Origin: Haloferax marinisediminis
GTDB lineage: Archaea; Halobacteriota; Halobacteria; Halobacteriales; Haloferacaceae
Assembly (NCBI RefSeq): GCF_009674585.1
Contig: NZ_WKJP01000001.1
Coordinates: forward strand, 1,798,001-1,862,000
Direction: 5' to 3'
DNA: 64,000 bases
Positions 13,291 to 39,678 of the stretch are shown one piece after another. Under the pieces are notes generated by a model. That model was not told the origin of the DNA. It searched no databases and worked only from the letters and a program-made list of their open reading frames with translations. A program made the position numbers and the translations under genes. The stretch's first letter is position 1. The number at the start of each line of letters is the position of its first letter.

Positions 13291-13300
13291 GAGTATGAGT

Positions 13301-13422
13301 AGGGGCGGCGAACTGGATTTCCCAGAGGATCGCTCACTCCAGTACTGACCAGAACGCAGGTGAGCTTAACTTCCGTGTTCGGGATGGGTACGGGTGGAAC
13401 CTCACCGCTCTGGCCGCCTTAA
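13301..13422 (-). rRNA. rrf: 5S ribosomal RNA
   Basis: 122 bases. On the minus strand the 5' end TTAAGGCGGCCA pairs with the 3' end GGCGGCCCCT-type terminal helix (GGCGGC on the plus strand at 13304). The internal loop 'CCCATCCCGAACACGGAAG' is the universal 5S core. No tRNA-Cys gene follows it here, although some haloarchaeal rRNA operons carry one. Confidence 0.95.
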
Positions 13423-13482
13423 TTCCGATCGATGGAATCGAACCATCGCCATACCAATATCGGTGGCGTCGATGTTGATTTT

Positions 13483-13524
13483 TGTACGTGCAATCCAGTT
13501 TGCGCCTGGACCCGTTCTCGGGTC
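13483..13524 (-). other. 3' arm of the 23S rRNA processing stem
   Basis: This stretch is the inverted copy of 16458-16500: both arms carry the GTGCAATCCAG and CTGGACCCGTTCTC blocks. Together they would form the long helix around pre-23S cut by the archaeal splicing endonuclease at a bulge-helix-bulge. Confidence 0.8.
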
Positions 13525-13534
13525 TCAGTGCGTA

Positions 13535-16445
<2,911 letters not shown>

Positions 16446-16457
16446 TATAGTCACTGT

Positions 16458-16500
16458 GACCCGGAGAACGGGTCCAGTGGACGCCTGGATTGCACGTACA
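16458..16500 (-). other. 5' arm of the 23S rRNA processing stem
   Basis: Pairs with 13483-13524 (see that entry). It lies just upstream of the 23S 5' end in the 16S-23S spacer. Confidence 0.8.
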
Positions 16501-16590
16501 CACGGTTTCATCAAACGCCCAGTAGTCTTCTGGCGCGTTTTCGACCCTTCCCAACCACGCTTGCGCGGGTTGGTGCATCAGTCGTCAATG

Positions 16591-16624
16591 CTCATTCCTT
16601 CGTATCGTCGTCCCACACTTAAGG
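16591..16624 (-). promoter_or_regulatory. Probable spacer promoter between 16S and 23S
   Basis: On the minus strand TTAAGTG is followed 12 bases later by ATACGAAGGAATG. The same arrangement, with the same spacing, occurs twice upstream of 16S (18582-18619 and 18734-18766). The copy here sits just downstream of tRNA-Ala, so it could start extra 23S-5S transcription. Spacer promoters are known in haloarchaeal rRNA operons. Confidence 0.6.
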
Positions 16625-16659
16625 GGCACGATTCAACGAGGGTTGAACATTGCTTACCA

Positions 16660-16731
16660 TGGACCCACAGGGATTCGAACCCTGGGCATCCTCCTTGCAA
16701 AGGAGGCACTCTACCACTGAGCTATGGGCCC
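16660..16731 (-). tRNA. tRNA-Ala (TGC) in the rRNA spacer
   Basis: 72 bases on the minus strand. The acceptor GGGCCCA pairs with TGGGTCC (one G-U pair), followed by discriminator A (complement of T at 16660). The anticodon loop CTTTGCAAG gives TGC. The T-arm carries GGTTCGAATCC. Its place between 16S and 23S is the euryarchaeal norm. Confidence 0.97.
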
Positions 16732-16737
16732 GTGTCA

Positions 16738-16782
16738 GCCCTAGTAGTTCTAAGGTGTCCGAACGGACGTCAGCGAACTCGG
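16738..16782 (-). other. 3' arm of the 16S rRNA processing stem
   Basis: Matches the reverse complement of 18381-18425 over about 45 bases with few mismatches; both arms share GCCCTAGTAGTTC and CAGCGAACTCGG. This forms the pre-16S helix with a bulge-helix-bulge site. Confidence 0.85.
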
Positions 16783-16825
16783 GAGATCGAAAGTGAGCCA
16801 CCCCGTCGGGGTGGTCTCGTTCGTT

Positions 16826-18299
<1,474 letters not shown>

Positions 18300-37549: not shown

Positions 37550-38029
37550 CTACTCTAACGCCGCTTTCGTCCGTCGGTGACGCTCACGGAACATGGGCTC
37601 GAAGCCGACGCCACCAAACACGCCCGCCAGTTGGCCGAGTGGGCCGAACGGAAGTTCGTACTCCACGCGGTCATCGATAATCGTCTCGTCGCCGTCGGCG
37701 ACGAAGCGGTGTGTGTGTACCCACTCTCGGAACGGCCCCCCGGCCATATCGTCGCGGAACCACGCCGTTCTCTCGTCTTTGTTGCGACCGAGGATACGCG
37801 AGACCCACTGCTGGCGCGGACCAACGCCGAACGGTTGCATCGACATCTCGATCTCCGTCCCAGCGACGAGTTCTTCGGGGGCTTCGTCTGTGTCAGGACC
37901 ACGAACAGCCACGATTTCGAGGTTCATCCACTCCGGGGTGAGAGCCTCCAACCCAGAGATGTCCGAGTGGAACTCCCAGACGCGTTCGAGAGGGGCAGCG
38001 ACGCGGGTTCGACGCTGGTACACTGGCAT
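37550..38029 (-). CDS. SRPBCC-family protein (polyketide cyclase/START-like)
   Basis: 159 residues. 'RRTRVAAPLERVWEFHSDISGLEALTPEWMNLEIV' and 'EYELPFGPLGQLAGVFGGVGFEPMFRERHRRTKAALE' are the usual ends of the SRPBCC/Bet v1-like fold with its helix-grip ligand cavity. It probably binds a hydrophobic molecule. Function unknown. It is convergent with the sensor-kinase gene. Confidence 0.9.
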   Translation of the reverse strand: MPVYQRRTRVAAPLERVWEFHSDISGLEALTPEWMNLEIVAVRGPDTDEAPEELVAGTEIEMSMQPFGVGPRQQWVSRILGRNKDERTAWFRDDMAGGPFREWVHTHRFVADGDETIIDDRVEYELPFGPLGQLAGVFGGVGFEPMFRERHRRTKAALE

Positions 38030-38386
38030 ACAGTACTGTTAGTCGCGAGACTCAAAGCAGTAGTGGCAACGAGCGACTGAGTAGGGTACAGTAGGCAACG
38101 AGCGACGGCCAGGGTGGGGACCTGCGAGGCCGTCGCTGACGATGCAAAAGGGCCCGCACGGCAACTCATTGGGCACGAACCGTGCGGGCGGGCAAGGGCA
38201 ACGTTCGGCCGTAGTGGAATTCGGGTTGGCTGTCGGAGTACGGCCGGGAATCGTTGTATCACCACGACACGTGTCGCGGCGAAACTACCTATTCGATGAT
38301 ATACCTTAATTATTTTGCACATTCTCGTGAACGTCCGCGACTACAGAAATTGTCTCCCCCTCATTGCGCGGACCGTCCCACTGTAC
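38030..38386. other. Gene-free spacer with several perfect hairpins (candidate structured RNA)
   Basis: About 357 bases between the SRPBCC start and the end of the DUF3179 gene. It contains perfect stems GCGACGGCC/GGCCGTCGC (38102-38136), GCCCGCACGG/CCGTGCGGGC (38152-38189) and CGGCCGTA/TACGGCCG (38206-38246), then a 12-base palindrome (38265-38276). GGCAACGAGCGAC is repeated (38065 and 38094). An AT-rich stretch (38298-38320) flanks it. No gene is seen. Strand and function unclear. Confidence 0.55.
38102..38246. ncRNA. Candidate structured non-coding RNA (three hairpins)
   Basis: Three adjacent perfect stems of 9, 10 and 8 bp within 145 bases exceed what a random spacer would give. On the minus strand an AT-rich, promoter-like tract (38298-38320) lies upstream. 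I do not see the signature of SRP RNA, RNase P RNA or a tRNA. Confidence 0.4.
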
Positions 38387-39532
38387 TCAGGCGTCCCAGA
38401 CTTCGGTAGCCGGGTTGAAGGCAAGCCACGCGAACCACAGCATCGGAGAGTACTCGTTCGCTCGATGGAGTCGCTCTCCGTCGTGTGGCCCGTCGAGAGC
38501 GTGTCCCGTCTGGACGTTCCAGCGGGACCCCCCGCCGACCAACACGTCCTCCTCACGGTCGAAGTGGACGACTTCCCCAGCCACGCGCCGGTCGTAGGCG
38601 ACGAGTGTGTATCCCGGAGCGGTGGTGACGACGACAGGCAGGTCGCCTACGGTGTCGTTGACGACGCCCGCCCATCGCACACGAGTCTCTGCGTAGGCAC
38701 GGGTGACAGTCCCGTCGCGGACACCGACGACCAACTCACGATTCGAGAGGCGCGTGTCTCCATCGGCCGCACCCGGTGCCATGTCCGGGTACGCGTCCCA
38801 GACTTTTGCCCACTGGTCGTAGAGGTCGAACCCGTAGTTGAATCGCACCGCACCGACGACGGTGTCCGAGAGTGGCGGCGGGAGCAACACCGTCGTCTCT
38901 GAAACTGCCTCGCGCCACTCGCCCCACGTCGTCACTGTCGACGGGAGCAGTTCCAACTGTGTCTCGGTCGCTGGACCACGAATCGCCGTCGCTAGCAGTT
39001 GGCTCCAGAGGCTCTCTGTCGCGGTGTCGTACATGACGAGGTTCTCGTTCCAGAGAACGCCGGAGACGCCGAAAGTCGCTTCCTCGCCACCGACGCGACG
39101 GGTTGCCACCATCCCGCTTTGACACAGTGGACAGTAGGTAACCAACACCGGCCGGTCGCCGAAGCGGTCGTTGACCACTTCGTGCCAACTCAGTATCCGA
39201 AGGGGGTACGCGCGGGCGATGCCGTCGAGCTCGACGCCGACGACGAGGTCGTCGTGTCCGAGTTGTGGCCGATACGTTCCGTCACCGAGGTCGATTTCGA
39301 GGTCGTCCCAGTTCGCCGCAAACACCGGTGCCGTAATCGCTGGAATGGCGTCTCTCGCCACTGATTGTCGAAGCTCTGATTCGGGGACTGGGCGCGAAAT
39401 CGCCTGTGGAAGTGGCCGTGACGACTCACCGGTCGTCGTCGCTGCGCGGGTGTCTCCGACGACGCTGATTCCACACCCGGCTATCGACACTCCGCCCGTC
39501 ACTGCGAGGGCGAGAAACGCCCGTCTGTCCAT
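38387..39532 (-). CDS. DUF3179 lipoprotein
   Basis: 381 residues from the ATG at 39530-39532. A short signal with 'DRRAFLALAVTGGVSIAGC' ends at a lipobox cysteine, so the protein is probably a Tat-exported lipoprotein. The DUF3179 core has 'VVNDRFGDRPVLVTYCPLCQSGMVATR' and the later 'VWDAYPDM' and 'GPHDGERLHRANEYSPMLWFAW'. The role of the family is not known; the CPLC pair suggests a redox or metal site. Confidence 0.9.
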   Translation of the reverse strand: MDRRAFLALAVTGGVSIAGCGISVVGDTRAATTTGESSRPLPQAISRPVPESELRQSVARDAIPAITAPVFAANWDDLEIDLGDGTYRPQLGHDDLVVGVELDGIARAYPLRILSWHEVVNDRFGDRPVLVTYCPLCQSGMVATRRVGGEEATFGVSGVLWNENLVMYDTATESLWSQLLATAIRGPATETQLELLPSTVTTWGEWREAVSETTVLLPPPLSDTVVGAVRFNYGFDLYDQWAKVWDAYPDMAPGAADGDTRLSNRELVVGVRDGTVTRAYAETRVRWAGVVNDTVGDLPVVVTTAPGYTLVAYDRRVAGEVVHFDREEDVLVGGGSRWNVQTGHALDGPHDGERLHRANEYSPMLWFAWLAFNPATEVWDA

Positions 39533-39678
39533 GCCTACCGTTACCAACCAATAGAAAAAACAGTCGAGGAGTCGGGTAGCCGTCTCGCACGACCTGCCGG
39601 GGAACAGGTGCGGCCGAAGTGGGCCACGGTGCACCCGAACGATTCTGGGGTGTGGACTCCTCGCGCGATTCGGTACGC

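Follow-up and report, generated by a model that had tools for sequence, protein, structure and literature searches.

The intergenic stretch between an SRPBCC gene and a DUF3179 gene in Haloferax marinisediminis contains a conserved minus-strand fold directly behind a conserved promoter-like element. We propose, with about even confidence, that it is a single-copy minus-strand sRNA gene with a promoter-like element of its own, whose loops would pair with mRNAs in trans; of the readings considered, a trans-acting sRNA presenting conserved loops is the most likely. The window analysed was the whole 64,000-nt stretch G000:C1:1798001-1862000, and positions are given within it (Table 1). The first-pass annotation had marked three perfect hairpins between the genes as a possible novel RNA. 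These hairpins are present, and the suggestion of a novel RNA is borne out by the conserved fold, the conserved promoter-like element and the lack of any match to the Rfam 15 covariance models in the region, both at gathering thresholds and up to E 10. The regulatory role also suggested there would be plausible. Of the stem lengths given there (9, 10, and 8 bp), the 10- and 8-bp values stood, and the first stem measured 10 bp instead of 9. The AT-rich tract noted upstream on the minus strand lies at 38319-38304 and coincides with the promoter-like element, and the repeated sequence before the hairpins is a 13-nt unit, GGCAACGAGCGAC. Stem H1 and the outer half of H2 had been overlooked.

Table 1. 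Features of the RNA locus and its neighbours (positions in the window).
Feature	Position	Strand	Remarks
SRPBCC (Polyketide_cyc) gene, downstream neighbour	37550..38029	-	PF03364; in 15/15 genus genomes
T-run CTTTG, probable own promoter of SRPBCC	38053..38057	-	~28-29 nt before ATG
13-nt repeat, copy 1	38065..38077	+	not conserved
13-nt repeat, copy 2	38094..38106	+	overlaps one H4 arm; not conserved
Hairpin H4, downstream of core	38101..38137	-	perfect 10-bp stem 38101-38110/38128-38137; invariant 21/37 (four genomes); kept in the four closest only
Conserved RNA core, 137 nt	38152..38288	-	start inferred from distance to TATA-like element
Stem H3, 10 bp	38152..38189	-	perfect stem 38152-38161/38180-38189; 18-nt loop 38179-38162; 67/70 cells paired
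C-rich linker CCCTTGCCC	38190..38198	-	invariant 8/9 (four genomes), 2/9 (seven; three far sequences shifted here in the alignment)
Stem H2	38199..38256	-	outer 38256-38252/38203-38199; inner 38246-38239/38213-38206, a perfect 8-bp stem read off the sequence; 83/83 cells paired in hand-fitted alignment, 8 gapped cells excluded
Stem H1, 8 bp, at or near predicted 5′ end	38260..38281	-	55/56 cells paired
Promoter-like element, BRE/TATA-like TGCAAAATAATTAAGG	38304..38319	-	invariant 15/16 (four genomes), 9/16 (seven)
DUF3179 gene, upstream neighbour	38387..39535	-	

Relatives of the element were found at the same place, upstream of SRPBCC, in six of the 14 other genus genomes. The bearers therefore number seven of 15: H. 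marinisediminis itself, H. profundi (G005), H. larsenii (G008), H. elongans (G009), H. marinum (G010), and the genomes G012 and G013. Sequence inspection upstream of SRPBCC did not find the element in the remaining eight. Across the bearers, the loops were kept better than the flanks, the three stems were conserved, and the promoter-like element lay directly upstream. The 25-nt H2 loop (38238-38214) was invariant at 22 positions in four genomes and at 11 in all seven, its motif being altered in G012; the corresponding counts for the H3 loop were 11/18 and 7/18. The spacer after the TATA-like element was variable (invariant 8/22 and 2/22), as was the 3′ flank at 38100-38031 (11/70 and 2/70). 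The lower counts in seven genomes are in part an effect of the MAFFT alignment, in which H2 is misplaced for the three distant sequences. The promoter-like element was recognized by the TATA and BRE consensus given in passages of PMC4983044. Hairpin H4, which was not maintained across all seven sequences, is perhaps part of the 3′ end of the RNA. The 13-nt repeat occurs twice only in the window sequence among these seven, and a scan for terminator-like sites of the bacterial type found none.

The fold was supported in several ways. The minus strand at 38030-38285 folded to -99 kcal/mol (z -4.6), and none of 200 shuffled sequences was equally low; the plus strand at 38050-38300 gave a z of -1.6, and 12 of 200 shuffles were equally low. 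In the unfitted MAFFT alignment of seven sequences and 31 pairs, 90.3% of the 217 cells were paired, compared with 28-48% when the partners were slid. Covariation among the Haloferax copies, which had been named in the first-pass annotation as a check, was present: ten pairs changed on both sides in this alignment, a number reached in three of 500 shuffles. The number of further pair types did not stand out from shuffled alignments, 243 of 500 of which were equally high. When H2 was refitted by hand, 17 of the 31 pairs changed on both sides, although an alignment of this kind is biased towards the structure to which it was fitted. The covariation sample comprised seven sequences, several of them close, and these seven support the fold.

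Folding the seven cores singly gave independent support for the structure. The lowest-energy folds contained H1, the inner H2 stem, and H3 in all seven. In G008 and G009 the outer H2 stem merged with the inner one, in G010 and G013 it took another register, and in G012 it was extended. The z scores of the single cores ranged from -1.9 to -4.4 on the minus strand and from -0.8 to -2.5 on the plus strand; the minus strand was lower in 7/7, and the values were modest for G008, G009, and G012. Each helix also kept more pairs when read as the minus strand than as the plus strand, a comparison in which the structure itself had been derived on the minus strand. The RNA does not encode a protein: read frame by frame, no stop-free frame was common to the seven cores (that of G010 was open in all six frames), and the pairs changed on both sides.

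The first-pass annotation had also considered a dispersed non-coding repeat family. That view was not upheld, since the RNA is single copy: BLAST matched the own genome once, and the covariance model gave one strong match there, together with a 20.3-bit match that was the same place on the opposite strand. The RNA element had no match on plasmids. A BLAST search over 59 genomes recovered four bearers (the own genome, G005, G013, and G010). Among 170 family genomes, the covariance model scored the seven genus sequences at 115.9-152.7 bits and the next best at 23.8 bits. When 392 genomes drawn from the order were scanned, nine matches reached E 0.01: six strong matches within the genus and three outside it (22.9-23.5 bits). 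Both scans used strict filters, with which weak matches are lost; without filtering, the best score among 15 SRPBCC loci from other genera was 10.2 bits. Of 23 fetched loci with weak family matches, 12 were submitted for alignment; ten of these alignments, plus two more, were inspected, and the stems could be drawn in some of them; the loop motifs were absent, and we therefore took the weak matches outside the genus for chance. The motif CAGYSARCCCGAATTCCA occurred in 75 stretches of the genome contigs, four of them in Haloferax, and these four and five others were inspected. Three viral matches to it scored 9.6-19.0 bits with the covariance model.

The distribution within the genus was compared with a protein tree of SRPBCC (30 rows), on which presence of the RNA requires two changes. 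This one-gene tree is consistent with a single origin at the root of the genus and a single loss in a clade of eight RNA-less genomes. The RNA-less clade, which probably corresponds to the H. volcanii group, had a support of 99/93. Support for grouping the bearer G012 with it was less than strong (80/87), and the branching at the root of the genus was unresolved; thus, other two-change histories are possible. If the RNA was lost in one clade, it is dispensable there.

The gene next upstream of the RNA was DUF3179 in four bearers and GH15 in three, and SRPBCC was constant, which indicates that the RNA is not bound to the upstream gene. DUF3179 stood at the locus in none of the eight RNA-less genomes, where GH15 comes next. 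A different conserved intergenic element was observed in two genomes of one other family genus (G097 and G021; loci L167 and L168), ~100-330 bases before the SRPBCC ATG. It sits between GH15 and SRPBCC, the position of the Haloferax RNA, and comprises an invariant CGTAAGTGTCAG and several stems. Over 131 bases, its copies in the two genomes are 79% identical. This element is possibly another RNA gene, and no sequence relation between it and the Haloferax RNA was found. Elsewhere in the window, Rfam identified a complete rRNA operon (16S, tRNA, 23S, 5S) at 13300-18299 on the minus strand.

For the trans-acting sRNA, the following mode of action is conceivable. Transcription from the TATA-like element would produce an RNA of at least ~137 nt, in which H1 would shield the 5′ end and H2 and H3 would keep their loops open. 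Target mRNAs might then be bound in trans through base pairing with the H2 loop and the linker; the loops might also be contacted by a protein partner.

Several searches for pairing partners were carried out. The exact complement of CAGYSARCCCGAATTCCA lay at the gene start in three Natrinema/Haloterrigena loci. This gene is presumably an acyl-CoA dehydrogenase, judging by its N-terminus, and the finding prompted the idea of such genes as targets. The starts of 26 acyl-CoA dehydrogenases (PF02771) in four genomes gave mean energies of -12.4, -19.3, -11.8, and -12.8, compared with -13.6, -17.4, -13.1, and -14.7 for a control of 43 ORF starts of the window, some of which are not genes. G008 had two single strong cases, and G012 had one. 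Acyl-CoA dehydrogenase start codons as a general target were rejected, being no better than the control in three of the four genomes.

The long perfect complement GGAATTCGGGYT occurred 18 times in 14 genus genomes. Six occurrences were the RNA itself, four were copies of one repeat of the own genome, and one site common to G004, G009, and G012 lay on the strand opposite a long open frame; no shared target was found among these perfect complements. The four repeat copies (L183, L192, L195, and L196, on contigs 1, 2, and 3 of the own genome) share a stretch with GGAATTCGGGTTCGAAA. ARAGORN detected no tRNA at two complement sites or repeat copies (L175 and L176). With up to three mismatches, the complement of the H2-loop 18-mer was found 338 times in 14 genomes, versus 97 times for a reversed control (~3.5-fold; sums made by us). 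This excess was alike on the two strands (168 and 170) and was seen also in RNA-less genomes, and we tentatively read it as coding composition, although the control is weak. Duplex energies of the H2 loop, the linker, and the H3 loop with the rRNAs and four neighbouring mRNAs gave nothing clearly below shuffles. The lowest results were those of the linker with 23S rRNA (4/60 shuffles) and of the H3 loop with the SRPBCC mRNA (12/60).

The main rival of a trans-acting sRNA is a protein-bound RNA. Here, a structural or guide RNA would act mainly as an RNP, its loops would be protein sites, and those of H2 and H3 might contact each other through AAUUC and GAGUU. We regard this as possible, though doubtful. 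Covarying stems and conserved loops would be expected of it as well, and the searches found no pairing target for the RNA. The AAUUC/GAGUU pairing was present in 34 of 35 cells and persisted through changes in G010 and G012; however, these changes were one-sided, a type of change that often preserves a pair by G-U, and none was double-sided. The absence of any Rfam family match also speaks against this reading, as does the rRNA comparison, in which the H2 and H3 loops paired with 16S and 23S no better than shuffled loops and the linker stood out only at the level given above for 23S. Narrower still, and in our judgement unlikely, is a new Haloferax class of RNP RNA with touching H2-H3 loops and a dedicated protein, already present in the genus ancestor and lost a single time, in the eight-species clade.

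The RNA could instead be a cis-acting leader of SRPBCC, either a long 5′ UTR or a riboswitch-like element, since it lies upstream of this gene in the same direction in 7/7, with a distance of 79-167 nt from core to ATG. We consider this improbable. A promoter-like T-run, CTT[TA][TGC], was found at -28 to -30 from the SRPBCC ATG in 29 of the 30 loci examined, whether the RNA was present or absent: six of the seven bearers, all eight RNA-less genus genomes, and all 15 loci from other genera. The exception was G010, which has CTATT at that position. Because SRPBCC has its own T-run, the RNA probably forms a transcription unit of its own. The core begins 212-302 nt ahead of the SRPBCC ATG, whereas coding transcripts of H. 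volcanii are mostly leaderless (72% of coding TSSs, PMC4983044), and the position of the T-run would be compatible with a leaderless SRPBCC mRNA. Moreover, the gene is retained in the eight genus genomes lacking the RNA. A DNA-level feature mimicking an RNA, such as a mobile-element remnant or a protein-binding site, is very improbable: H1 is near-palindromic and the element is missing from 8/15 genus genomes, but its pairs are better kept on one strand, through G-U, it is single copy by BLAST and covariance model, and its position is fixed beside a conserved promoter-like element.

The genus provides a natural experiment, in which sister species with and without the RNA share the same gene neighbourhood. 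If the RNA-less species include H. volcanii, as we infer, the RNA can be introduced into a genetically tractable species to measure its effect; alternatively, a deletion can be made in a bearer, for example H. larsenii.

A literature search found no earlier description of this RNA; the gene tags of the H. mediterranei sRNAs in PMC5852579 could not be mapped to the locus. Among known systems, the archaeal SRP RNA and RNase P RNA are likewise structured and 100-400 nt long, yet the region had no Rfam match to them. The archaeal H/ACA and C/D guide RNAs resemble it in being small and structured and in having unpaired stretches that are conserved; unlike them, it matched no Rfam family up to E 10, and its pairing with rRNA, judged by simple duplex energies for three unpaired stretches, did not exceed shuffles apart from that of the linker with 23S (4/60). 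Closer are the intergenic sRNAs of H. volcanii, the number of which was raised from 145 to 540 according to PMC4983044, and of which s479 (PMC8155600) and sRNA132 (PMC6560208) were reported as regulators of transporter genes. Like these, the proposed Haloferax RNA gene lies between protein genes and has its own promoter-like element, here at the sequence level. In contrast to them, it belongs to another set of species, its model had no match in the RNA-less eight-genome clade, and it has a conserved three-stem fold. Intergenic sRNAs of haloarchaea are an established kind, and the Haloferax RNA fits no searched family. The comparative support for its fold is better than usual; to our knowledge, few archaeal sRNAs have a comparatively supported fold.
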